Below, piece after piece: positions 49,270 to 63,855 of a stretch of DNA of 64,000 nt. The notes beneath the pieces were generated by a model that saw only the letters and a program-made list of their open reading frames with translations, made no database searches and was not told the DNA's origin. The stretch is taken from NCBI RefSeq assembly GCF_001304615.2, contig NZ_CP032683.1:2666001-2730000 (forward strand), given 5' to 3'. The stretch is from Methanosarcina flavescens (lineage in GTDB: Archaea; Halobacteriota; Methanosarcinia; Methanosarcinales; Methanosarcinaceae). The position numbers and the translations under genes are program-made. Position 1 is the stretch's first letter. Every line of letters begins with the position of its first letter.

Positions 49270-49503
49270 AAGCTTTTACAAGTCACATAAAAACTCACAA
49301 TTTTTTTCTGACGCAGGGATGGAAAACGTCCTTGTAACTTTTCCTTTTTAAAAAATATTCTCAGTAAAGGGCATATTTATGTCTTTTTTCAGGCAATTCT
49401 TTTAGTTTCGTAGCAATATTTCATAAATATGTACATTGATTGTTTGAGAGTTTGCACAGAAACTATATATGTCTGGGTTTCTAATTAATTTTTGGGTGAT
49501 AGT

Positions 49504-50004
49504 ATGAAAACCTGGAAAATGTTGATTTTATGCATTATTATAGGATTGATGGCTGTTCCTGCGGCTTCAGCAGAGGAAGCATATGCGGAAAACTCTGATA
49601 CTAAAGTTACTTTAGATTCTGCTGGATACGATTATGTTGTTAGTCCCTCAACAGAAAATTCTTCTGATACAGAGAATTCTATTTCTCTTCTACGGTCAAC
49701 CCAATATATAACTCAGGGACAGACCATAACTCACAATGTAAACGTAGGTTCAGGAGTGAATTACCTTGAAGTGGATTTAAACTGGGGAGACACAAGCGAT
49801 TCACTTACTCTTACCATTTACACCCCCTCTGGAAGCAAACTCGGAACTTACCGTGATAGTTCTGACGGAAGTACAAATGGCAGGATACATCTCAACATAG
49901 ATCCCTCTCAGGGATACGTGCAACAGGGAACCTGGAAGTTCAATGTCTACGGAGAATCGGTTAGTGGAACCGAAGACTACACATTTAATGTTTACCAACA
50001 TTAA
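49504..50004 (+). CDS. Exported protein with PPC-like beta domain
   Basis: About 166 residues from ATG 49504 (MKTWKMLILCIIIGLMAVPA), a signal peptide ending near ASAEEA. A Ser/Thr/Asn-rich linker follows, then a beta-sandwich: TQYITQGQTITHNVNVGSGV, DSLTLTIYTPSGSKLGTYRD and GTWKFNVYGESVSGTEDYTF, a pattern of bacterial pre-peptidase C-terminal domains. There is no catalytic domain. Its 3' end overlaps the start of the next gene by 17 bases, so the two are probably co-translated. Confidence 0.8.
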   Translation: MKTWKMLILCIIIGLMAVPAASAEEAYAENSDTKVTLDSAGYDYVVSPSTENSSDTENSISLLRSTQYITQGQTITHNVNVGSGVNYLEVDLNWGDTSDSLTLTIYTPSGSKLGTYRDSSDGSTNGRIHLNIDPSQGYVQQGTWKFNVYGESVSGTEDYTFNVYQH

Positions 50005-50728
50005 GCTTGAAAAAAAGGTTATCTTCTTTTTACTATTTTTTCTTTTAACAACAACAGCTGAGGCTACAGAATATGTTGTAAGCTCAGCTCCAGGTGACCA
50101 AGCCGGAGCTTCAATTAAAGGAGAAAAGGTAGTAAAACTTGAGGATACCTTAATACCCTACTGGCAGTTTTTGCTCTGGCTGACTGCAATGCAAATTTTA
50201 TCAATAATAGACGTCGTTCTGTACTTTACAAAGCTCATTTTTGTAATACTGGGATTTAAAATTGTAAATAAAGAAAACGTACTAGATAATCCTGATCGGT
50301 CTAGTATTTATACATATATTAAAACTAAACCGGGAGCATGCATCGGTGAAATTGTAGAAAAAACAGGCTTCGGCAGAGGAAGAGTAAGGCATCATATAAC
50401 TATTCTAGAAGTTCAGAACAAAATTGAAGTCCATAAAGACAGTGGAAAGATTAGGTATTTCAAAAATAATTCCACTTATCATGAAGAGAGAAAAATTATT
50501 TCTGCCCTTCAAAACGTAACAAGTCAAAGAATAATTTCAGAAATACAAAATGGGAATTGTAATACGAACTCAGCTCTTGCACATGAAATCGGAGTTTCCA
50601 GAGCTACAATTAGCTGGTATATGAGAACTCTTAAAGAAGTGGAGCTCATAAATGAAGAAAGAGAAGGAAAAAACATTATTTATAGAGTAAACCCTACTTA
50701 TGAAAACTTGATTGAAAAATATGGATAA
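49988..50728 (+). CDS. Membrane-anchored tandem winged-helix regulator
   Basis: About 246 residues from ATG 49988 (MFTNIKLEKKVIFFLLFFLL). An N-terminal membrane/signal segment, an external stretch, and a second membrane helix near residue 75-95 lead to two winged-helix domains: RSSIYTYIKTKPGACIGEIV, then HHITILEVQNKIEVHKDSGK; and a second with GVSRATISWYMRTLKEVELI. Archaeal membrane-bound wHTH proteins of this plan sense an outside signal and bind DNA inside. It is co-expressed with the PPC-like protein and lies just before the precursor clusters, so control of those clusters is an attractive guess. An earlier frame start at 49943 is less likely. Confidence 0.85.
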   Translation: MFTNIKLEKKVIFFLLFFLLTTTAEATEYVVSSAPGDQAGASIKGEKVVKLEDTLIPYWQFLLWLTAMQILSIIDVVLYFTKLIFVILGFKIVNKENVLDNPDRSSIYTYIKTKPGACIGEIVEKTGFGRGRVRHHITILEVQNKIEVHKDSGKIRYFKNNSTYHEERKIISALQNVTSQRIISEIQNGNCNTNSALAHEIGVSRATISWYMRTLKEVELINEEREGKNIIYRVNPTYENLIEKYG

Positions 50729-51053
50729 AATAACCTTGAATCCAGTTTTAAAATAACGGCTATCAAAAAATTTCTGAAAAGTCTGCTTCAATCTCGCTAC
50801 ATCTTTTTTCTCTAGTCTACTTATTCTTAAACCCTGAGTCTATATAGTCTCAAGAATAAAAGCTGACTTTACCCATCTTGAGGTAAAAAGACATCAATAA
50901 CAAAATTATAAAAATCAGAAGATCTCGTAAAGTCCAATTTTGCCGCAAAGAGATGTTATATCCTAAAGGGTATATAGATTATTCTTTTTAGTGAAAACCT
51001 GGTTACTAGCTGTAGACTTTAAACAATTGGCGTTAAACTGTTCTATATAGAAC

Positions 51054-51143
51054 TTCCGGCCAAGCTCTCTAACTGTTTTTTGTAGCTCATTTTAGATCTG
51101 TAAAGATTCTCTTATCTCTGATAGTTAGAGAAATTGGCCGGAA
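51054..51143 (+). promoter_or_regulatory. Long inverted repeat upstream of precursor 1
   Basis: 21-base arms (TTCCGGCCAAGCTCTCTAACT and its near-complement ending TTGGCCGGAA) pair with two mismatches around a 48-base spacer. Immediately upstream is the perfect 14-bp palindrome GTTCTATATAGAAC (51040-51053). The equivalent structure is at 55942-56030 and 60591-60680. It lies some 100 bases upstream of the nearest TATA-like box, so it is more likely a DNA-binding site than part of the precursor mRNA. Confidence 0.6.
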
Positions 51144-51221
51144 AACTTATAAAGGATTATTTAATAACTGAGTAAGTGGGAATGTTGCAGGATTCAGTAG
51201 AGTTTGAGGGCAATGCTGAAC

Positions 51222-51341
51222 CCTGCATACCCGAAGGCATGAAGTATATAACTTTCTAACTATTTTAAAGTTTGCTTCTTGCCTGCATACCCGAAGGCAT
51301 GAAGTATATAACTTTCTAACTATTTTAAAGTTTGCTTCTTG
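51222..51341 (+). repeat. Duplicated 60-bp promoter-like unit, cluster 1
   Basis: Two exact tandem 60-bp units, each containing a purine-rich BRE-like stretch and TATATAA (51245-51251 and 51305-51311). From the second box the expected start of transcription is near 51335, giving a leader of about 40 bases before the TTG start. Cluster 3 has the same duplication; cluster 2 has one diverged unit. Confidence 0.75.
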
Positions 51342-51373: not shown

Positions 51374-52126
51374 TTGAGATTAAATGACGAAGTTAGAAAA
51401 ATTAGCGGGCTTTTCATGATAATGCTCGTTGTAGGTATGATACTGGTTACGCCTGCATTGGCATGCCCTCCTAATGTACAGACTGAGCAAGACAGTTCTA
51501 ACACATTAACAGATTGTCCAGCTTGTTCGTTAAGTTCTGAGTATGCTAATTATTCAGATGCTAAAGTGGAAACCATAGAACTATCCGAAAAAGAACAGAA
51601 AAAAGCCACAGCAGAAGCATTATCAGATGAAAGTGTCTCAAAGTTGAGAGATGAATTGATAAAATTAGGGTATGTTTCCTCTATTGAAGAAATCTATACA
51701 ATGAAGTCAACTACAACAACAGAAAATGAAACAGTAACAACTACAATTGTAACGATGCCATTTAATGGTACAAATAATGATTCAGCTGTTATCGTATTTG
51801 CTTCCAATGAACTTGGAAATGCTGCAATGGCAGGTGTAGCAAATAACGGTGAGCTAACAGTATTGCAGTACGATTCTGTCACGGATCAAGTACAAATAAC
51901 GGGACTATCTTGTGATTTCTGCATGTGGGCTGTCGGTGAAATATGTGATCTCATTTCAGCTTACGGATGCAAACAAGTATGTACCATAATAGCTACAAGA
52001 ATTCCACATCCAGCTTGGATAGCTTTCACAGGGGTTACTTGTTGGGCGCTATGTAGCTTTATTGTAAGTTATAAGGCATGCAATTGGGCAACTAGCGAAG
52101 TATGTGAAGGAGCGGGGCTATGTTAA
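51374..52126 (+). CDS. Halocin C8-like cysteine-rich peptide precursor 1
   Basis: 250 residues with a TTG start placed six bases after GAGGTGA. A basic N-terminus and signal peptide end at VTPALA-C31. A middle domain (about 32-175) carries CPAC and a Thr-rich segment. The C-terminal core (about 180-250) has ten cysteines at 180, 183, 191, 199, 203, 223, 227, 236, 244 and 250, ending GAGLC. As I recall it, mature halocin C8 is a 76-residue peptide with ten cysteines, a CxxC start, similar end spacing and a RAGLC end, released from a precursor whose N-terminal part gives immunity. The resemblance is strong, so I infer an archaeocin or similar secreted peptide. The mature boundary is unknown. 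Confidence 0.82.
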   Translation: MRLNDEVRKISGLFMIMLVVGMILVTPALACPPNVQTEQDSSNTLTDCPACSLSSEYANYSDAKVETIELSEKEQKKATAEALSDESVSKLRDELIKLGYVSSIEEIYTMKSTTTTENETVTTTIVTMPFNGTNNDSAVIVFASNELGNAAMAGVANNGELTVLQYDSVTDQVQITGLSCDFCMWAVGEICDLISAYGCKQVCTIIATRIPHPAWIAFTGVTCWALCSFIVSYKACNWATSEVCEGAGLC

Positions 52127-52413
52127 TGTTAAACCCTCTTTTTACTTTTTTTATTTTTTATGTGGCCTCATTAGCTACTCGCGTAATAATAATGACTTAT
52201 TACCCACAATATACTTATTTTGCGCATGTGCTTTCTTCGCTTTTGATTTCCATTGGCATGGCTTTTTCGATTCCATTTATGAAACCAATTATTTCGCGTC
52301 TTCCAAAACTCAGTCCAAAAATGAATCGGTGGTTTAAAATGGGATTTGTTATTCTGGTTTTTATAACAACTTTTTTGATATCTTATTATAAATATATGCC
52401 TCAAAGTCAATAA
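52126..52413 (+). CDS. Small membrane protein coupled to precursor 1 (candidate immunity)
   Basis: 95 residues. Its ATG at 52126 shares a base with the precursor stop (TAATG), so it should be translated by re-initiation. About three membrane helices; the conserved segment YYPQYTYFAHVLSSLLISIG recurs almost unchanged in the cluster 3 counterpart. The C-terminus is basic. It has no known domain. Position, size and one-to-one pairing with the peptide gene suggest a self-protection protein; a role in export or processing is the alternative. Confidence 0.75.
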   Translation: MLNPLFTFFIFYVASLATRVIIMTYYPQYTYFAHVLSSLLISIGMAFSIPFMKPIISRLPKLSPKMNRWFKMGFVILVFITTFLISYYKYMPQSQ

Positions 52414-52492
52414 CGAAGGCATATAACCGATTATAATCGTTTAAATACTCATTAAAACTTAGCGAATAAAATTGAGCAAGAGAGGCCCTAAG

Positions 52493-53494
52493 ATGTTAAA
52501 AGAACTCATAATTATGATTTTTCTCCTCAATATAATGGCAGGTGGATGCTTGGAAGATACAAACGATAAACCAACCGTTGAAGAAATAATGTATCATACA
52601 CAGGATAAATATGAGTCTATTGACGTATTCAAGGCGACAATGATTTCTACAACAAATTTTCAAGGAGAAGAAGTAGCTCAAGAAATGGATTTTTTGTTTG
52701 AGAAACCAAACAAATATAAATGTGTTAATAAAGTCGAAAATTTCACAACAATCTCTAACGGTGAAGTTGTCTGGATGTACCATTCGGACAAGGATGAAGT
52801 AACAGTAGAAGATCTAGAAGATTCTAAAAGAATGCCAAGTTTCGATTATGGCATGATTTTTAAAGACTTAACCATAATCAATGATATGAGCTTGATTGGG
52901 GATGAAAAATTATCTGGTAAGTCTTGTTATGTAATTGAGGCTATACCAAAAAATAAGACTGCCATAATATCCCAGAATATATGGATAGATAAGGAAAGCT
53001 GGATTCCAATTAGAATCGATAGAGATTTTGGAGGTTATAAATCGAGGGTAGAATACATAAACATATCTGTAAACACCGATGTCAGTGATAATGAGTTTGA
53101 ATTTATTCTACCAGCAGATGCGAAAATTGTAAAGCCAAATACATCGCTCCCAAACCAAATTAGCATGGAAGAAGCTCAGGAAAGTGCAAATTTTACAATA
53201 TTGAAACCTTCTTATTCTGCTGGTTATCAATTCAATGGTGCTACAATTGGCGAATATGCGGATAGCGTCTCTTTATCTTATGCTAAAGGAAGAAGTCTTT
53301 TAACTATTGTTCAAACTCGGTCCAAGTATCCTGTACCAAATGCCGAAAATGTTACAATTGGAGAATTAAAAGGAGAAATTACAGAGACTTTTGGTAATAA
53401 AATGTTAAGGTATAACGATGGCAATATTTACGTCATAATTGCAGGCACAGTAAGTGAAGAAGAACTTGTAAAAATAGCCGAGTCCATGACGTGA
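52493..53494 (+). CDS. LolA-like lipoprotein (DUF4367-type C-terminus), cluster 1
   Basis: 333 residues from the ATG at 52493 after GAGAGG (the frame is open 21 bases further). The lipobox is NIMAGGCLED. The first two thirds resemble the LolA/LppX fold of outer-membrane-lipoprotein-sorting family proteins (DVFKATMISTTNFQGEEVAQ; QNIWIDKESWIPIRIDRDFG; VSDNEFEFILPADAKI). The last 120 residues form a DUF4367-like domain (SAGYQFNGATIGEYADSVSL). Such proteins bind lipid or hydrophobic ligands. Here it may shield cells from, or carry, the hydrophobic peptide. A paralogue is at 61967. Confidence 0.8.
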   Translation: MLKELIIMIFLLNIMAGGCLEDTNDKPTVEEIMYHTQDKYESIDVFKATMISTTNFQGEEVAQEMDFLFEKPNKYKCVNKVENFTTISNGEVVWMYHSDKDEVTVEDLEDSKRMPSFDYGMIFKDLTIINDMSLIGDEKLSGKSCYVIEAIPKNKTAIISQNIWIDKESWIPIRIDRDFGGYKSRVEYINISVNTDVSDNEFEFILPADAKIVKPNTSLPNQISMEEAQESANFTILKPSYSAGYQFNGATIGEYADSVSLSYAKGRSLLTIVQTRSKYPVPNAENVTIGELKGEITETFGNKMLRYNDGNIYVIIAGTVSEEELVKIAESMT

Positions 53495-53604
53495 CCACTC
53501 ATGGCAATTATTTCTACCATTTGATTGGAATATAAAAATATCAATGTATTAAAGTTGTATTTTTTAGTTCGAAACGAAAAAATATACACTTGTTAGGAAT
53601 CTTT

Positions 53605-54642
53605 ATGAAAAGCAGTTCTCACACAATAACTGTGCTAACCATTATTCATTTATCTCTTATTTTTATACCAGTAGTTGGTGCAGATCCGGTTACAATCCAG
53701 TATTTCCATCAAAAAGGTTGTCATGATTGTGAAATAACTGATCCTATTGTCAATCGAATAGAAGCTCAATATGAGAACATGGTTATAACAAGAATTGAAA
53801 CCAGTACTGTTGATGGTTTCAACCGATGGAATAAATATGGTTTTCTTGAAGTCCCGGCTATTGTGATAAACAATGAAACAAAACTTCCCAAAGAAGAAAT
53901 TACTGAAGAAAAGCTAAAAACTTTAATCGATGAATATCTTGCGGCAGAGGAAAATATTACTGAATATACTACAGAAGAGGCAACGAGAAAAGAACAGGAA
54001 AACGAGTATATAAACACAAACCTGAATTTGCCATTTGCTTATTCACTAGGTCTTTTTGCAGGTTTTTCACCCTGCCTGATGGCCATACTGGGATTTCTTT
54101 TAAGTTTTACTGCAGGGACGAGCAATAGTGCGAAAAGCGGTATGATACGTGCAACGGTGTTTGGATTGGGACTGGTAGGTTCTTACTTAGTATTGGGCCT
54201 GTGTTTGCTCTCATTCCAAAAATCAATTCCCGATTTGGAAAGCTTTTCTTTTGTTACAGGCATTGTTGTAATTCTTATCGGGTTAAACCTTCTGGGGATC
54301 TTAAAATCACCTGTCGTTCTGGATAATTATTTTCGAAGTTCTGCCAGGAAATATGCAGGTACTCTGGGTGGAGTTTTCTTTCTTGGGATACTGTTTTCGT
54401 TTGTAAAAGTTCCCTGCACTGCTCCAATGCTCCTTGTACTTCTCAACAAGACTATTACAAACGGGACTGTTAATGATCTGGCTCTATTGCTTGCTTTCAG
54501 CGCCGGAGTATTGACACCTTTTATTGGAGTTGGCATGATAGGAGGCTATACTCTATCTAAACAAATTCGTTCATACAGAATATACCTGAAAAAAATCAGT
54601 GGATTTGTGCTTATATTACTTGGTTTATGGATAATGTTTTAA
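53605..54642 (+). CDS. Thioredoxin-CcdA fusion, thiol-disulfide membrane protein
   Basis: 345 residues from ATG 53605. A signal segment is followed by an extracytoplasmic thioredoxin-like domain with YFHQKGCHDCEITDP (CxxC) and the cis-Pro site EVPAIVI. A CcdA/DsbD-type membrane domain of about six helices follows, with its paired cysteines in AGFSPCLMAIL and FVKVPCTAPMLL. These proteins move electrons across the membrane to thiol-disulfide partners. It lies directly after the ten-cysteine peptide genes, and I infer it forms or isomerises their disulfides. Cytochrome c maturation is the alternative, but no cytochrome genes are nearby. Confidence 0.88.
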   Translation: MKSSSHTITVLTIIHLSLIFIPVVGADPVTIQYFHQKGCHDCEITDPIVNRIEAQYENMVITRIETSTVDGFNRWNKYGFLEVPAIVINNETKLPKEEITEEKLKTLIDEYLAAEENITEYTTEEATRKEQENEYINTNLNLPFAYSLGLFAGFSPCLMAILGFLLSFTAGTSNSAKSGMIRATVFGLGLVGSYLVLGLCLLSFQKSIPDLESFSFVTGIVVILIGLNLLGILKSPVVLDNYFRSSARKYAGTLGGVFFLGILFSFVKVPCTAPMLLVLLNKTITNGTVNDLALLLAFSAGVLTPFIGVGMIGGYTLSKQIRSYRIYLKKISGFVLILLGLWIMF

Positions 54643-54757: not shown

Positions 54758-55429
54758 ATGGATAATCTGAACTTAAATACTCTATTATTTGACCCAAATT
54801 CATTTTTCAGAGAAAAACTAGGAAATGAAGTTAGTCTTAAGTATCCTCTATTGATAATACTTGTGATGGCTGTATTAACAGTAAGTTCAAGTATTGTGGT
54901 TATGAATAACCTTCAAGATTCGTTTTCTTCTGGCATGGATTCATCTATGTCTTCTTCAGTAATGTCAAGTATCATTGGAGGCGTTGCCATCGGGGGTTTT
55001 ATTGGAACATTTTTATATTGGGTTATACTGGCTGGAATCTTATATTCAATATCTTATGTGTTTAAATCGAAGGGTTCTTTCAAGAGAACGTTAGAATTTA
55101 CAGGTTATGGTTTTGTGCCACAAGTATTCAGCAGTTTAGTAGGTTTAATTGTAATGTATATCATGTTATCTTCAACCGATTTATCATCACAGGACTCAAT
55201 ATTTATGGGCCAGGGTGTAGAGCAGATGTTCTCAAATAATCCTCTGTTTTATACATCACAAATAATTGGAATTTTATGTCTCTTACTGTCTGGCTATATA
55301 TGGATATTTGCAATCTTGCATGCACGAAATATGTCATACAAAAACGCCGCTATTACTGTTGGTATTCCCATAGGTCTGGCCATTGTTATCCAGATATATT
55401 CTTTCCTGTTTACTTCCGGGAGCTTGTAA
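54758..55429 (+). CDS. Yip1-family membrane protein
   Basis: 223 residues with five membrane segments. The Yip1-like signature starts LLFDPNSFFREKLG and continues to GSFKRTLEFTGYGFVPQVFS and IWIFAILHARNMSYKNA. Prokaryotic Yip1 proteins often sit with transporters or secretion genes, but their function is not defined. Same strand as the upstream genes, 115 bases after the thioredoxin-CcdA gene with its own AT-rich spacer, so membership in cluster 1 is uncertain. GGTGTAAGAG precedes the ATG. Confidence 0.8.
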   Translation: MDNLNLNTLLFDPNSFFREKLGNEVSLKYPLLIILVMAVLTVSSSIVVMNNLQDSFSSGMDSSMSSSVMSSIIGGVAIGGFIGTFLYWVILAGILYSISYVFKSKGSFKRTLEFTGYGFVPQVFSSLVGLIVMYIMLSSTDLSSQDSIFMGQGVEQMFSNNPLFYTSQIIGILCLLLSGYIWIFAILHARNMSYKNAAITVGIPIGLAIVIQIYSFLFTSGSL

Positions 55430-55689: not shown

Positions 55690-56290
55690 TTTTTTCTCCA
55701 ATCTACTTATTTTTAAAACCCGAATCTATATAGTCCCAAGAATAAAAACTGACTTTACCCACCTTGCGGTAAAAAGATATAATGACAAAATTATAAAAAT
55801 CAAAAGATCTCGTAAAGTCCGACATTGCCATAGAAAACTACAAACTCTCAAAAAACATACTAAACATTCTTTTTTAGCAAAAAGCCTGGTTACTGATTGT
55901 AGACATTTAAATAATTGACATCGAACTGCTCTATATATAACTTCCGGCCAATTTCTCTAACTGTTTTTGTAGCTCATTTTAGAGCTGTAAAGATTCTCTG
56001 ATCTCTGATAGTTAGAGAGCTTGGCCGGAAAACTTATAAAGAATTCTCTAAAACTGAATAAGTGGGAATGTTGTGCAAGGTCCAGCAGAGTTTGAGAGCA
56101 ATTCTGAACCCTGCACGCCCGAAGGCGAGAAATAGATCACTTTAAAGCTATTTTAAAGTTTGTTTCTTGCCTCTTGAATGAAAGTAAAGAGGTGAAATAA
56201 ATTGGAATTAAATAACAAAATTAGAAAAATCAGCGGGCTTTTCATGATGATGCTCGTTGTAAGTATGGTACTGGTTACGCCTACGTTGGC
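55690..56290 (+). repeat. Leader cassette, copy 2 (diverged)
   Basis: This copy aligns with the cassettes at 50769 and 60308 over the upstream spacer, the long inverted repeat (55942-56030), a single promoter-like unit (from about 56107), the GAGGTGA ribosome site and the signal-peptide codons. It differs at many more positions than copies 1 and 3 differ from each other. A short ORF at 55643-55918 falls inside it and is not conserved in the other copies, so I do not call it a gene. The spacer 55430-55689 has nothing recognisable. Confidence 0.85.
55942..56030 (+). promoter_or_regulatory. Long inverted repeat upstream of precursor 2
   Basis: The arms are TTCCGGCCAATTTCTCTAACT and the near-complement ending TTGGCCGGAA. 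The two mismatched positions are the same as in copies 1 and 3 but with the arm variants exchanged (TT left, GC right here; GC left, TT right there), while the loop orientation is unchanged. Confidence 0.6.
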
Positions 56291-56816
56291 ATGTCCAGCT
56301 GGAACAAATTGCGGGAGTGATTCGGTTCCCGCAAACCCGATACAGCTAACAGGAGCGGATAAAGACAAAATGCTGAGTACGGCTTTAAGCGATAGTAATG
56401 TCAAAAAATATCAAGAGCAATTGATAAATGAAGGATATACACAAAATGGCAGTACAGCACTTGTTATACCAGTGGAAAATAAAAACGATAGCTCAATAAC
56501 TGAGATCAAATTTGCTGCAATAAGTTTCAAAAATGACAAGTCTCAAGAACCCAACAAAACTATACTATATAGCTACAATCCACAAACCAAAACAAGCACA
56601 ACTGTAGTGATAAATAGTTTACTAAGCGATTGTGTTTTCAACTTATCGATTTGTTTGGGGAGTGCTGCTACTTGCGTAATAATTTGTGGTCCGCTTTTGG
56701 CACCAAATCCAGCCACGCCATTAGAGGTAAAACTTTGTTTGGCATGCATACCAATTGGTGTCGGAGCCTGCGGACTTGCTTATACAGCATGCCACAAATA
56801 CTATTATGGAGAGTAA
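56202..56816 (+). CDS. Cysteine-rich peptide precursor 2 (different core, same leader)
   Basis: 204 residues, TTG start after GAGGTGA. The signal peptide is nearly the same as in precursors 1 and 3 (RKISGLFMMMLVVSMVLVTP; TLA-C31). The middle region (about 50-140) is only loosely related. The C-terminal core has eight cysteines at 144, 151, 158, 162, 179, 182, 190 and 197, is hydrophobic and glycine/alanine-rich, and ends HKYYYGE. It is not halocin C8-like in spacing. I infer a second type of secreted disulfide-rich peptide using the same expression and export leader. The name 'bacteriocin-like' rests on context. Confidence 0.7.
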   Translation: MELNNKIRKISGLFMMMLVVSMVLVTPTLACPAGTNCGSDSVPANPIQLTGADKDKMLSTALSDSNVKKYQEQLINEGYTQNGSTALVIPVENKNDSSITEIKFAAISFKNDKSQEPNKTILYSYNPQTKTSTTVVINSLLSDCVFNLSICLGSAATCVIICGPLLAPNPATPLEVKLCLACIPIGVGACGLAYTACHKYYYGE

Positions 56817-56858: not shown

Positions 56859-57239
56859 ATGAGAGTGATCATAAAAAGGAATTCAAAAAAATTCCTTTTT
56901 TTGCTTTTTTTATCAATTTTTGCCATCATAGGAGGTACTATAACAACATTAATGTCCCCAACAAAAATATCCTTAAATGGATTGTACCTTATATTGGCTG
57001 GGATTGGACTTTTTTTCCTTACGCTTTCAGCCTCTACAAAAGATCAAAAATCATTTGAACGATGGTCAATTTTTAGTGGTATTTTTTACGGTATTGCACT
57101 TCTTTGTGGTAGTTTAATTTCATTTAGATATGGCCAAACCGTAACTGCAAAGATAATTTTGCTATGTGGGGTAATTGTTATTTCATTGACGATATCTTCG
57201 ATCGTTTCGGTCTTAAGGAGGGGAAAACAGCATGTATAA
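56859..57239 (+). CDS. Four-helix membrane protein of cluster 2 (candidate immunity)
   Basis: 126 residues with four membrane helices (FLLFLSIFAIIGGTITTLM; LNGLYLILAGIGLFFLTLSA; IFSGIFYGIALLCGSLISF; IILLCGVIVISLTISSIVSV). GAGGAG precedes the ATG. It shows no similarity to the small membrane proteins of clusters 1 and 3, in parallel with the different peptide core. It overlaps the next gene by 8 bases. Function inferred from position only. Confidence 0.7.
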   Translation: MRVIIKRNSKKFLFLLFLSIFAIIGGTITTLMSPTKISLNGLYLILAGIGLFFLTLSASTKDQKSFERWSIFSGIFYGIALLCGSLISFRYGQTVTAKIILLCGVIVISLTISSIVSVLRRGKQHV

Positions 57240-58098
57240 CAATGCAAGAAAGAGGTTTGGGGTTATACTCATACTTATACTATTTGTGATCATGGCATTT
57301 GAACTTGGTTGTATTGGAAAAGCACAAACTGATTATAATCTAAAATATAATTTTCATGTAGGTGATAGACTTGTTTACAATTGCACATACCTCACAAGTG
57401 ATACATATTATACAGGATATATCACAAATAATACAAATTATACAGGACCAATTCGTATTGAAATGTTAGTTACAGATTTTGATGGAAAGAATATAACCTC
57501 AAAAATGACATCAACGAAAACAACAAATGAAAACACTACTGAATCTTCATATGTCACAATTATGGACGTTTATGGAAACCTGATAAGATCAGATCCCAAA
57601 GATAAAATTATACCTGAGGTACAACCGGAACTGCCAAATCTGCTAAAGTATCCAGAAAAAGAAACTCAAGAAGGTAAACCATGGACAATTGTATTCAAAA
57701 ATAACATAAATGAAAACCCTTTATTAAAAGATGAATTCGAAGGTACAGGAAACTACACTTTTTTAGGTACAAAAACAATATCGACAAAAGCCGGTAAATT
57801 TGAATGTATTGGTATCAAATCAGAAACAAATTTTGTTTCAAACGCAAAAAGAGACTATAGTAATACAACCATTCATTATACAACAGTAGGCAATATCTCT
57901 GGAGTAAATTGGATAGATTTAAATGGTGGATTCTCAGTTAAATCCAATTACATTATGGATAAAACTTTGACAATTGATTTATCTGGACTGGCCAATAATT
58001 CTGAATATCAGAAAGTCGGAATTGAAAATGTTAGTATCAATAGCCCGACAATTGAAACGCATATAATTAATGAACTTGAAAGCGTCCAGAAAGGATGA
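57232..58098 (+). CDS. Cluster 2 lipoprotein of unknown function
   Basis: 288 residues. Lipoprotein signal FVIMAFELGCIGKA; the rest is Thr/Asn-rich and beta-type (YNLKYNFHVGDRLVYNCTYL; STKAGKFECIGIKSET), with many glycosylation sequons. It occupies the place of the LolA-like lipoproteins of the other clusters but I cannot show homology. Overlap with the upstream gene (57232-57239) implies one operon. Confidence 0.75.
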   Translation: MYNNARKRFGVILILILFVIMAFELGCIGKAQTDYNLKYNFHVGDRLVYNCTYLTSDTYYTGYITNNTNYTGPIRIEMLVTDFDGKNITSKMTSTKTTNENTTESSYVTIMDVYGNLIRSDPKDKIIPEVQPELPNLLKYPEKETQEGKPWTIVFKNNINENPLLKDEFEGTGNYTFLGTKTISTKAGKFECIGIKSETNFVSNAKRDYSNTTIHYTTVGNISGVNWIDLNGGFSVKSNYIMDKTLTIDLSGLANNSEYQKVGIENVSINSPTIETHIINELESVQKG

Positions 58099-58187: not shown

Positions 58188-59285
58188 TAGTTCTTGACGT
58201 AACCTATTACACATATTAACTCTTATGATCTCTTATGGGTGGGGAAAGAACAAATTGTTATTGATCGGAAGTTGAGTCTTGATAAGGTAAACTCTCTAAT
58301 TAAACATGAAAACAACTCTAGAGTTCTAAAAAGGCTTTATTTTATCAAATTTAGGTATTTAGGAGATTCTGTTGAAGAAGCTTCTATCAAGGTTGGAGTA
58401 ACTAAGAAATGTGGTTATTATTGGCAGGATTATTGGAATAAAGGCGGCTATGCCGCCTTGATACCACAATTTGGTGGGGGAAGAAGGTCTAAGCTTACTG
58501 ATGAACAAATGATAGAACTAAGGAATCTATTGAAAAAGAAGGATTACTGGACTACCAGAGAAGTTTTAGAATTAATAAAAGAAAAGTATGGCGTAGAATA
58601 CTCGTTGAAAAGAATAGGAGTTATTCTGAAAAATTTTGGAATGCATCACTCAAAACCATATACTCTTGACTACAGAAGACCTAAAGATGCAGAAGAAATT
58701 TTAAAAAAAACTAAGTGAAGCAATTCCAAAGTATGTTTGTCCAGATTAGAAATATGTGATAGGCTTCCTTGATGAATCTTCGCCACAAACAAAAGCAAAC
58801 ACACAGCGTTTATGGGCATTTAAAAAGTCTTTAAGGCTCAAAAACACAGATTACATAAAGGCAAATGCATTTGCTTTTTACTCAATTAATGGAAGTAATC
58901 TCATTGATTTTAAAGAAAGTTCAAAAGCAGAAAGTATATATGAGTTTCTTGAAGAAATAGTGGAAGAAAACAGAGGAAAAATAATAGTCCTTATACTCGA
59001 TAATTCAAAAGTACATAAGGCAGACAAAACAAAAACAAAAGCTAGAAAACTGGGAATTATACTGGTGTTTCTTCCGCCTTACTCACCAGATCTAAACCCT
59101 GTAGAATTTATATGGAAAACAATTAAAAGAGAAGTATCAGTCAGATTTGTTCAATCAAAAGAACATTTGAGAAATATAATCAAAAATGAATTCATCAGGG
59201 TAGAGGGGTCAATATCATTTGCAAAAAAGTGGATAGAAAAATTTCATCCACAAATAAAAAGTGTAATTAGTTGAGAGAGAAACTA
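58188..59285 (+). mobile_element. IS630-family insertion sequence, frameshifted
   Basis: An approx. 1.1-kb element whose imperfect ends both begin TAGTT and share AATTACAC/TATTACAC about 20 bases in, bordered by TA at 58186-58187 and 59286-59287, as expected for IS630/Tc1 insertion at TA. It carries a two-part transposase. A truncated relative starts at 59819. It separates cluster 2 from cluster 3. Confidence 0.75.
58239..59274 (+). pseudogene. IS630-type transposase, broken into two frames
   Basis: The first part (58239-58718, GTG start) is the helix-turn-helix region with NNSRVLKRLYFIKFRYLGDS and YYWQDYWNKGG. The frame ends at TGA after an A8 run (58703-58710). One base fewer would continue LSEAIPKYVCPD, but a TAG then follows at 58747 before IGFLDESSP. 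The second part (58756-59274) has the DDE residues FLDESS, ILDNSKVHKADKT and the typical LPPYSPDLNPVEFIWKTIKR. Frameshifting is known in some IS630 relatives and UAG can encode pyrrolysine in Methanosarcina, but two lesions make inactivity more likely. Confidence 0.8.
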
Positions 59286-59818: not shown

Positions 59819-60123
59819 TAGCCCTAATGTTAACCTGTTACACACATTAGCTCTTAATATCCATTTATGATGAGGAAAGAACAAATTACTCTTGACCAAA
59901 AGGTAACCCTTGATTAGCTTAATTCCTTGATCACACACGAAAATAATTCTAGAGCACTTAAAAGGCTTCATTTTATCAAATTTACATATTTAGGAGATTC
60001 TGTTAAAGAAGCTACTATTAAACTTGAAGTAACTGAGAAAACATTACATTATTGGCAGGACTATTGGAATAAAGGCGGAATAGACGCCTTAATGCTACAG
60101 TTTAGTAGGGGAAGAATATTTAA
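59819..60123 (+). pseudogene. Truncated IS630 remnant
   Basis: It starts with a TATAG...GTTACACAC end like the IS at 58188 and encodes KEQITLDQKVTLD, a TAG, then LNSLITHENNSRALKRLHFI, YLGDSVKEATIKLEVT and YWQDYWNKGGIDALM. It breaks off within GRIFK at about 60123, where a 179-bp inverted-repeat element begins. The 3' two thirds of the IS are missing. Confidence 0.85.
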
Positions 60124-60125
60124 GC

Positions 60126-60304
60126 GGCTCTTCGCTATTTTGTATGGGTTGAAAATAATTACTTAGTTAGAAAGTAGCCAGATCAAATGGACAAATATCA
60201 AGCTTGAATGCGATTTACAACAACTACTATTTCTAAATTTTAGAGGCGCAGCTTTAACATTCAGAAGCTGAATGAAAGTTACCCACTCGAAACAGCGAAG
60301 AGCC
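60126..60304. mobile_element. 179-bp MITE-like element with ~24-bp inverted repeats
   Basis: The ends GGCTCTTCGCTATTTTGTAT and the complement of the right end (GGCTCTTCGCTGTTTCGAGT) both continue into TGGGT and match for most of 24 bases. GGCTCTTCG-type ends are typical of ISL3-related elements. No target duplication can be seen: the left side is IS630 remnant, and the right side is the start of leader cassette copy 3. The element marks the exact junction of the duplicated cassette. Confidence 0.75.
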
Positions 60305-60590
60305 AATAATTTCTGAAAAGTCTGCTTCAATCTCGCTACATCTTTTTTCTCTAGTCTACTTATTCTTAAACCCTGAGTCTATATAGTCTCAAGAATAAAA
60401 GCTGACTTTACCCATCTTGAGGTAAAGACATCAATAACAAAATTATAAAAATCAGAAGATCTCGTAAAGTCCAATTTTGCCGCAAAGAGATGTTATATCC
60501 TAAAGGGTATATAGATTATTCTTTTTAGTGAAAACCTGGTTACTAGCTGTAGACTTTAAACAATTGGCGTTAAACTGTTCTATATAGAAC

Positions 60591-60680
60591 TTCCGGCCAA
60601 GCTCTCTGACTGTTTTTTGTAGCTCATTTTAGATCTGTAAAGATTCTCTTATCTCTGATAGTTAGAGAAATTGGCCGGAA
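60591..60680 (+). promoter_or_regulatory. Long inverted repeat upstream of precursor 3
   Basis: Same arms as at 51054 (TTCCGGCCAAGCTCTCT...) with one extra change (A to G at the inner end of the left arm), preceded by the palindrome GTTCTATATAGAAC. Confidence 0.6.
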
Positions 60681-60757
60681 AACTTATAAAGGATTATTTA
60701 AAACTGAGTAAGTGGGAATATTGCAGGATTCAGTAGAGTTTGAGGGCAATGCTGAAC

Positions 60758-60877
60758 CCTGCATACCCGAAGGCATGAAGTATATAACTTTCTAACTATT
60801 TTAAAGTTTGCTTCTTGCCTGCATACCCGAAGGCATGAAGTATATAACTTTCTAACTATTTTAAAGTTTGCTTCTTG
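60758..60877 (+). repeat. Duplicated 60-bp promoter-like unit, cluster 3
   Basis: Two exact 60-bp units with TATATAA boxes at about 60781 and 60841, identical in arrangement to cluster 1. Confidence 0.75.
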
Positions 60878-60909: not shown

Positions 60910-61647
60910 TTGAGATTAAATGACGAAGTTAGAAAAATTAGCGGGCTTTTCATGATAATGCTCGTTGTAGGTATGATACTGGTTACGCCTGCGATGGCGT
61001 GTCCGGCTGGGAAAGATTGCCCTAATGTATCTCAAAACTGCCCAGCGTGCGGATATTTAAGTGCTCCAAAATCAGATGCTGAAGTGAACATGATAGAGAT
61101 ATCAAAAGAAAAAGAAAAAAAAATTATAGCAGAAGCATTATCTGATGAAAGAATCTCAAAGTTAAACAGTGAGCTTAAAAAACTAGGCTACACTCCTTCT
61201 ACTAGTGAATTCAATGCATCGATGCTAACTACAACAACGACAAACGAAACAGTCACAAGTTCGATTGTAATAATGCCATTTGACAACGGGCGTAAAAATG
61301 AATCTGCTGTCGCAGTATTTACTTCCAATGAACATGGAAGTGCTGCCATAGCAGCTATGCGAAATAACAGTGAGGTCACATTACTAGAGTACGATTCTGT
61401 TAAGGGTACCTTCCAAGTAAGTTCGGTGGATTGTGACTTCTGTATGTGGGCTGTTGATAAAATATGTGGTTACCTCGCAGAGGGAGGATGCGCTTATGCA
61501 TGTGCGCAACTAGCTACAAAGATTCCGCATCCAGCTTGGATGGCTGTTTCAGCGGCTTTTTGCTGGGTAATATGTGACTTCGTTCTAGAAAATTATGCAT
61601 GCAGTTGGAGCGCAACTACAGTTTGTCAAGAAGTGGGGTTGTGCTAG
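60910..61647 (+). CDS. Halocin C8-like cysteine-rich peptide precursor 3
   Basis: 245 residues, TTG start after GAGGTGA. The first 28 residues are identical to precursor 1. The middle region has CPAGKDC and CPAC motifs, a charged helix (EISKEKEKKIIAEALSDERI) and a Thr-rich segment. The core has cysteines at 175, 178, 186, 194, 198, 218, 222, 231, 239 and 245, exactly the spacing of precursor 1, and ends EVGLC. The central IPHPAW and the DFCMWAV start are shared with precursor 1, while other core positions vary. Interpretation as for precursor 1: a secreted disulfide-rich antimicrobial-type peptide. Confidence 0.82.
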   Translation: MRLNDEVRKISGLFMIMLVVGMILVTPAMACPAGKDCPNVSQNCPACGYLSAPKSDAEVNMIEISKEKEKKIIAEALSDERISKLNSELKKLGYTPSTSEFNASMLTTTTTNETVTSSIVIMPFDNGRKNESAVAVFTSNEHGSAAIAAMRNNSEVTLLEYDSVKGTFQVSSVDCDFCMWAVDKICGYLAEGGCAYACAQLATKIPHPAWMAVSAAFCWVICDFVLENYACSWSATTVCQEVGLC

Positions 61648-61943
61648 TGAAGCCTATTATTACTTCTATTATTACTTTTTTTCTTTTTTTAATAATGTCA
61701 TCAGTTATTCGTATCACAATAATGTCTTATTATCCACAATATACCTATTTTGCGCACGTACTTTCTTCGTTTTTGATTGCTATAGGTTTTGCATTTTCAA
61801 TCCCTTTCATATTTATGAAATATCTCTCACTTCCCCCTAATTATAGCCCAAAGACGAAGAAAAGGATCCAAATTGGGTTTACTATTTTGGTTTTTGTATC
61901 ATCATTTTTAGGATCCTATTTTGGAAATATGCCAAAAATATAA
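61647..61943 (+). CDS. Small membrane protein coupled to precursor 3 (candidate immunity)
   Basis: 98 residues from a GTG at 61647 that shares a base with the precursor stop (TAGTG), the same coupling as TAATG in cluster 1. Membrane segments ITSIITFFLFLIMSS and HVLSSFLIAIGFAFSIPF; the motif YYPQYTYFAHVLSS is shared with the cluster 1 protein. An upstream in-frame ATG at 61599, inside the precursor, is disfavoured because the homologue lacks that part. Confidence 0.75.
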   Translation: MKPIITSIITFFLFLIMSSVIRITIMSYYPQYTYFAHVLSSFLIAIGFAFSIPFIFMKYLSLPPNYSPKTKKRIQIGFTILVFVSSFLGSYFGNMPKI

Positions 61944-63025: not shown

Positions 63026-63214
63026 AATGAAACATATAGTCATCATATTCTATGGATTGATCCCAAAATCTGGATGCCGTTAAAGATCCAAAGTTATAAC
63101 GGTGACAAACTTCTGATGACACTAGAATATGAGAATTATTCTATAAATTCAGGCATAAAAGATACTGAATTTGAATTTAAACCTCCAGAAGGTACTGAGG
63201 TGATTAATATATGA
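63026..63214 (+). pseudogene. 5'-truncated LolA-like lipoprotein fragment
   Basis: The open frame without a start gives HHILWIDPKIWMPLKIQSYN, then LMTLEYENYSINSGIKDTEF and EFKPPEGTEVINI, the C-terminal part of the LolA-like domain (compare WIDKESWIPIRIDRDF... in cluster 1). Its TGA overlaps the ATG of the next gene (ATGA at 63211-63214), so it was once an operon member. The N-terminal two thirds are gone. Confidence 0.75.
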
Positions 63215-63855
63215 ATATAGACCATATCGTTAAAGAAGAATTATTACGTTCACTTCCAGTACTATTTGTTAGTTTTTTAATAATCGGGCTACTGATTAGG
63301 GAAGGATATATTCCGTTAGAGATGTCAAGGGTATTTATTCTTGCCCTCTTTGTTACAGCTGTCCATTTCTTTTTTATGGTCTGGTATAGAAAAAAGGAAC
63401 AGATTGATAAGAATTCTATCTTTTATATAATTGACCATATTTTGAGCTCAAGGTTTTATGAAGAAAAAACTGCAAAATCCCATGATAAAGAAATCAGCAT
63501 CTTTTCCTCGCTTCGAAAAAATGTGGGTCTTCTAATTATTACGCTGTTCCTGTATATTGCTTACCTCTACGCATCTCTAACTTATCACATAGATCAGATC
63601 TTCTGGATCTTAGTTCTATTATTTGTTGGGGGCACGCTATCAAAAATCATATATGGTGAAAGGAAAGAAGATCAAAACAATCCTGTGAGATTGCTGTTTT
63701 TCTATGTAATCGCATGCGTTTTTATTTTTGTACGTTACCTTGTACTTGATTATCCTATTCTTCCTGTTTTAAAAGGAAGTATAATTCTTGGAATATTACT
63801 GATATTTTTGGTTTTAGGAATAAAATGGTCGCAGCGTAAACAAAACTCGATTTAA
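63211..63855 (+). CDS. Multi-pass membrane protein of cluster 3
   Basis: 214 residues with about six membrane helices (LPVLFVSFLIIGLLIREGYI; VFILALFVTAVHFFFMVWY; VGLLIITLFLYIAYLYASL; LLFFYVIACVFIFVRYLVL; IILGILLIFLVLGIKW). A short charged internal loop carries KEEQID-type residues. Family not recognised. It overlaps the decayed lipoprotein fragment by 4 bases, and is followed by another lipoprotein start, indicating the operon continues. Confidence 0.7.
   Translation: MNIDHIVKEELLRSLPVLFVSFLIIGLLIREGYIPLEMSRVFILALFVTAVHFFFMVWYRKKEQIDKNSIFYIIDHILSSRFYEEKTAKSHDKEISIFSSLRKNVGLLIITLFLYIAYLYASLTYHIDQIFWILVLLFVGGTLSKIIYGERKEDQNNPVRLLFFYVIACVFIFVRYLVLDYPILPVLKGSIILGILLIFLVLGIKWSQRKQNSI

Follow-up and report, generated by a model that had tools for sequence, protein, structure and literature searches.

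What is encoded by a gene that shares its leader with two neighbors and carries a core resembling neither? This question is raised by the second of three precursor genes in the window, which is the 64,000-nucleotide stretch of Methanosarcina flavescens DNA analyzed here (G000:C1:2666001-2730000, in a genome, G000, of 3.28 Mb on a single contig). On the sequence comparisons below, it is reasonably probable that precursor 2 is one payload of a modular, polymorphic, archaeocin-like secreted-peptide system that is built on the platform of the small RNA sRNA162.

The reading frame of precursor 2, with its eight-cysteine core, is present as the earlier note described it (Table 1). The core cysteines are residues 144, 151, 158, 162, 179, 182, 190, and 197, and two extra cysteines, C31 and C37, come just after the signal peptide. 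The charge of the core is slightly negative rather than cationic, and the substitutions counted in the B core were five nonsynonymous and one synonymous. The AlphaFold2 model is usable only for residues 45-138, in the pro-domain (pLDDT in the core is below 50), and there it predicts two helices first and then four strands. With this model, Foldseek gave no match at E <= 0.001, and the best VIA-align rows, which are cystatin/monellin-like (Z up to 6.3), are too weak for use, so that other folds are possible. No relative of solved structure was found by sequence. The core also has no match to any Pfam, NCBIfam, or PADLOC family, so the suspicion that it might be a known non-secreted domain can be set aside; a single NCBIfam row for precursor 2 (E 0.06) spans the signal peptide only. 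The proposal of a new peptide family stands with respect to the libraries searched, with relatives existing beyond this genome. Core 2 thus appears to be a new core family relative to the libraries and papers searched, and an earlier mention in the literature is possible.

The cores of the two neighbors are of the halocin C8-like kind. In this analysis' own labels for core types (A1, A2 [halocin C8-like], B [precursor 2], C, D, E, F, and G), the window holds two types, A2 twice and B once. Against TIGR04449, whose cut-off is 24 bits, precursors 1 and 3 score 25.4 and 26.4 bits in the genome search, in which both cores pass, and 23.0 and 24.0 bits as whole proteins; precursor 2 has no match at E <= 1. 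That core 2 is unrelated to the other two is confirmed by an hhalign probability of 0.8% between cores A and B. It had also been called a third peptide type, and here the count needs correction: since precursors 1 and 3 share the halocin C8-like core, precursor 2 is the second type. Among the genes that accompany the precursors, the thioredoxin-DsbD fusion likely performs disulfide chemistry, which fits disulfide-rich products. Other genes lie nearby. A Yip1-domain membrane protein (54758-55429, E 1.8e-29) is found between module 1 and cassette 2. A 214-aa protein with six transmembrane (TM) segments (63211-63855), which has no confident Pfam match, belongs to family cl5, whose members are seen close to many cassettes, for the most part those with D cores but also some deleted loci.

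Table 1. Features of the precursor locus, in window coordinates; the last row gives positions in other genomes.
Feature	Position	Strand	Remarks
MM2440-like secreted protein, PPC domain (cl7)	49492..50004	+	
MM2441-like regulator (cl4)	49943..50728	+	Membrane segment and ArsR/winged-helix domains
sRNA162 copy 1	51050..51238	-	RF02792; upstream of precursor 1
Precursor 1	51374..52126	+	250 aa; halocin C8-like core, type A2
Small membrane protein, family cl12, module 1	52120..52413	+	97 aa, 3 TM; candidate immunity protein for core A2
LolA-like lipoprotein (cl3)	52472..53494	+	Module 1
Thioredoxin-like (CHDC) and DsbD membrane domain fusion (cl1)	53590..54642	+	Recurs beside precursors
sRNA162 copy 2	55938..56126	-	RF02792, 156 bits; antisense, 75 nt upstream of precursor 2
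TATA-like box CTTATAAAG	56033..56041	+	Probable position
Shine-Dalgarno GAGGTG	56189..56194	+	7 nt before precursor 2 TTG; kept across genus
Precursor 2	56202..56816	+	204 aa, TTG start; signal peptide, pro-domain, 8-Cys type B core
Signal peptide of precursor 2, residues 1-30	56202..56291	+	Cleavage predicted from sequence between TLA and CPAG
Pro-domain of precursor 2, residues 31-143	56292..56630	+	hhalign; AlphaFold2
Type B core of precursor 2	56631..56813	+	8 cysteines, hydrophobic, GRAVY 0.95
Small membrane protein, family cl6	56859..57239	+	126 aa, 4 predicted TM; candidate immunity protein for core B
Lipoprotein-like secreted protein (cl2)	57232..58098	+	288 aa, weak DUF3108-like match; downstream of cores B and C
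sRNA162 copy 3	60587..60774	-	RF02792; upstream of precursor 3
Precursor 3	60910..61647	+	245 aa; halocin C8-like core, type A2
Small membrane protein, family cl12, 3' of precursor 3	61599..61943	+	Candidate for core A2
sRNA162-like element before non-cysteine secreted protein	G156:C1:2822585; G152:C1:1708689; G175:C201:36728; G151:C2:1492703; G156:C1:3536578; G169:C39		L049, L130, L054, L129, L138, L139

The three window genes do have a leader, a TTG start, and a signal peptide in common, as had been stated. In their upstream regions, copies 1 and 3 are 98-100% identical, and copy 2 is 62-86% identical. A search of the whole genome finds the shared leader at three places only (blastn, E 1e-34 to 1e-84), a similarity far above chance; the locus at G000:1424370, which encodes another protein and resembles the leader only weakly, was rejected as a family member. 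The earlier note had taken this region for a 600-bp promoter cassette. The region is indeed repeated at all three precursors, but it contains a minus-strand antisense gene, sRNA162, which scores 151-156 bits in the three copies (156, 151.8, and 151) compared to a gathering score of 78 in Rfam, and the stem-loops of its three-stem structure are seen in the computed fold. From its position and orientation, the window sRNA162 would be antisense to the 5'UTR of the precursor downstream.

This RNA, 191 nt long, was characterized in M. mazei (Jager et al. 2012, PMC3510493), where its gene is flanked by MM2442 and by the regulator gene MM2441. Gel shift and footprint assays in vitro showed pairing between the first 65 nt of the RNA and the MM2442 5'UTR, and MM2441 is repressed in trans through the linker region of the RNA; what MM2442 does was "still elusive" in 2012 (PMC3510493). 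Among the genomes compared here, G156 is probably M. mazei, since it has the top sRNA162 score and the matching gene order. The window resembles the M. mazei MM2440-MM2441-MM2442 locus in having the same sRNA (RF02792), the same geometry, and the same gene order, namely an MM2440-like gene, an MM2441-like gene, antisense sRNA162, and then the precursor. The M. mazei locus differs in that it occurs in one or two copies, with no function given to MM2442 and no ribosome-binding site at its annotated start (PMC3510493), whereas the target here is a family of cysteine-rich precursors with varied payloads and a conserved TTG and Shine-Dalgarno. The second M. mazei copy, sRNA171, is at a duplicated locus adjoined by transposases (PMC3510493), and in the window an IS630-type transposase split into two reading frames (58239-59274), along with a partial second copy (59927-60166), sits between the precursor 2 module and cassette 3. 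The MM2441-like regulator consists of an extracytoplasmic-looking N-terminal part, a TM segment, and two winged-helix domains, a layout more suggestive of a membrane-bound sensor than of a soluble repressor.

The TTG start of precursor 2 is supported by the conserved Shine-Dalgarno AAAGAGGTGRAATARATTG, which in the aligned leaders precedes nearly every intact Methanosarcina cysteine-rich precursor; other payloads have a similar motif with an ATG start. Transcription would begin near 56062, 25 nt after the TATA-like box, because an overlap of 65 nt with sRNA162 was measured for MM2442. The failure to find a ribosome-binding site at the annotated MM2442 start (PMC3510493) is likely explained by the true start being the upstream TTG. 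The arithmetic would agree: the 65-nt overlap, the 75 nt that lead up to the TTG, and the 42 nt from there to the following ATG add up to 182, compared to the reported 184.

Relatives of the leader and pro-domain occur in 28 of 185 Methanosarcinales genomes and also in other families of the phylum, and relatives of core 2 are likewise found in other Methanosarcinales and beyond; none was found on plasmids, phages, or viral contigs. Types B and C align over the whole protein with six invariant core cysteines, while B relatives in three genomes (G157, G178, and G022) have about 12 core cysteines. By hhalign, the pro-domains of most types are homologous (A-B 91%, A-C 94%, B-C 99.9%, B-D 91%, C-D 95%; A-D gives 22%), and that of type F has no homology to the other types. 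The cores, on the other hand, are unrelated except for B-C (87%) and, weakly, A-F (68%). All of the cores examined are hydrophobic (GRAVY 0.67-1.25) and have an even number of cysteines. One precursor, in G162, carries a frameshift, from either assembly error or decay.

Of 30 Methanosarcina genomes, 16 have an sRNA162 gene that scores above the cut-off, and outside the genus the gene is almost absent. At most intact loci, a secreted-protein reading frame begins 74-77 nt past it; the spacer of the window's A2 copies is longer (136 nt) because of a repeat in the 5'UTR. Other payload genes in related genomes do use this leader, contrary to what would have refuted the earlier note. They include core types A1, B, D, and E, as well as secreted proteins of a non-cysteine type: 148 aa, 160 aa, peptidase-like (412-424 aa), trypsin-like (396 aa), and PPC-like. 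The 74-77 nt spacing is kept by the 148-aa, 160-aa, and 412-424-aa payloads, and sRNA162 may have an entire class of secreted proteins in its regulon. The idea of a leader for bacteriocin-type cores therefore survives in part; the leader drives varied cores, but the non-cysteine payloads had been missed. Since these include protease-like proteins, the leader alone does not imply an antimicrobial. Cysteine-free secreted proteins with the same type of signal peptide are also seen at four loci (L086, L087, L090, and L092), several of them with a GSYVESYG / GGVHIHFS motif, and are possibly another payload family.

Downstream of the precursors there are five families of small membrane proteins, each paired with one core type: cl6 with B, cl8 with C, cl10 with A1, cl12 with A2, and cl27 with F. 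For B, C, A2, and F, the membrane gene comes directly after its precursor; for A1 the link is looser, and the distance can be about 1 kb. Family cl6 is present in 5 of 30 Methanosarcina genomes. Four of these have a B core, and the fifth, G151, has kept cl6 but no more than the final 18 codons of a B core, behind an sRNA162 leader. In all, the precursor is mostly lost and the membrane gene intact at five loci, two of them in G151 and one each in G149, G171, and G173. Pairwise dN/dS for cl12 and cl6 pairs that involve an orphan is 0.24-0.57, a value that includes divergence predating the deletions. The membrane gene of G150 is frameshifted, by assembly error or decay. With immunity genes, the costly product is lost and the protective gene kept, so the retention of orphan membrane genes after precursor loss is what one would expect of them.

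One could consider instead that the peptides are secreted signals, or pheromones, which an MM2441-like regulator senses in order to tie methyltransferase expression to growth phase or population density. Many loci do have the regulator and MM2440-like genes upstream, and in M. mazei sRNA162 processing goes up in stationary phase, while methyltransferase transcripts shift when the RNA is overexpressed (PMC3510493). However, the regulator is found upstream of several unrelated core types, and core-specific membrane proteins that are kept after the precursor is lost fit immunity better, so a pheromone role is unlikely. It is also improbable that sRNA162 controls a generic secretion platform for surface or extracellular proteins, in which the cysteine-rich ones have structural, redox, or metal-binding roles in the envelope and are diversified by recombination, driven, for example, by viruses. 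The variety of secreted proteins that sRNA162 precedes, PPC-like and protease-like ones included, suits this reading, and hypervariable surface-protein modules are known in other archaea (PMC8416519); the homology of two window members to halocin C8-like cores argues against it, as do the strict membrane-gene pairing and the retention of orphans.

The claim of a constant leader with different cores is strongly supported, with junctions at the signal-peptide boundary. For example, the B locus of G157 and the D locus of G155 match exactly over the first 98 nt, counted from the start codon, and have no relation beyond that point, in genomes whose gyrB genes are 89% identical. The opposite is seen between precursor 2 and the B locus of G150, in which leaders that are 58-91% identical are followed by about 1.8 kb of payload at 94-100% identity. 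This payload extends to about +1960 and takes in the pro-domain and core as well as the genes for the membrane protein and the lipoprotein, while gyrB of the two genomes is 84% identical (62% at third codon positions). The D loci of G153 and G155 show the same leader and payload behavior. These comparisons indicate exchange between species, with the junction near a predicted cleavage site between ALA and CPAG. That the genes are ordinary paralogous secreted proteins, with a leader shared by recent duplication and cores diverged in place without swapping, is very improbable: copies 1 and 3 of the window (leaders 99-100% identical, payloads mostly 52-84%) do fit duplication plus gene conversion, but between genomes there are identical leaders with unrelated payloads and near-identical payloads with divergent leaders, the change falls at the signal-peptide boundary in genomes with gyrB only 84-89% identical, and for these pairs the reading is refuted unless the contigs are misassembled.

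The archaeocin-like reading can be compared to known systems. Like the halocin C8 precursor ProC8, the window precursors would be exported, and they combine a pro-part at the N-terminus with a hydrophobic core, rich in cysteine, at the C-terminus; precursors 1 and 3 share its family, TIGR04449, unlike the core of precursor 2. This mismatch speaks against the archaeocin-like reading, as do the slightly negative charge of the B core and the frame-broken genes of two near relatives, G162 and G150, both draft genomes. ProC8 is Tat exported and its pro-part, HalI, gives immunity, according to PMC11509114 and PMC12893001, whereas the window precursors have predicted Sec-like signal peptides and the candidates for immunity are separate, core-specific membrane proteins. 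As an alternative or an addition, the pro-domain itself might have a HalI-like immunity role, as its model also starts with two helices. The Hac8_like_N pro-domain (PF22862) was rejected as its source within Methanosarcinales, with no match in 184 genomes; one relative outside that order has a weak match (E 0.036, below the cut-off). In common with bacterial polymorphic toxins, the system has a conserved N-terminal trafficking region, a swapped C-terminus tracked by a downstream cognate gene, and orphan protective genes that are kept. It differs from them in its predicted small disulfide-rich peptides, as opposed to enzymatic toxin domains, and in the antisense sRNA built into the constant region. 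VARTIG of Thermococcales, another archaeal hypervariable secreted module, has a similar layout of a constant part and variable downstream genes, but its products are immunoglobulin-domain proteins (PMC8416519).

A mechanism can be proposed from these parts. The fixed platform would consist of the sRNA162 gene, the payload promoter, the 5'UTR with its Shine-Dalgarno, and the Sec-type signal peptide. Recombination would place interchangeable modules behind it, each with a pro-domain, a core, a core-specific membrane protein, a lipoprotein, and often a thioredoxin-DsbD fusion. The core would be exported within its precursor, oxidized to a disulfide-rich peptide, and cut from the pro-domain, and the mature hydrophobic peptide would act on the membranes of competing archaea, as halocins do, with the small membrane protein protecting the producer. 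In the meantime, sRNA162 would repress the payload mRNA through its 5'UTR, by pairing of the kind seen with MM2442 in vitro. It is an even call whether sRNA162, promoter, and signal peptide together form the recombination platform, and the constant part, of an archaeal polymorphic peptide-toxin system, by which payload-immunity modules exchanged between Methanosarcina species come immediately under the control of the resident sRNA162.

Among archaeal small RNAs, sRNA162 is one of the best studied. Its cis-target MM2442, whose role was open in 2012, is placed by this analysis in a family of cysteine-rich secreted precursors, and this neighbor of a well-studied sRNA is thereby offered a testable role. 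Several cysteine-rich core families are added that are absent from the libraries searched, with an earlier mention in the literature being possible. Annotation could be amended as well, with a TTG start suggested for MM2442-like genes and MM2442 homologues suggested as candidate archaeocins. If the proposal is true, methanogens too would follow the logic of polymorphic toxins and immunity, and their constant module would include a regulatory RNA.
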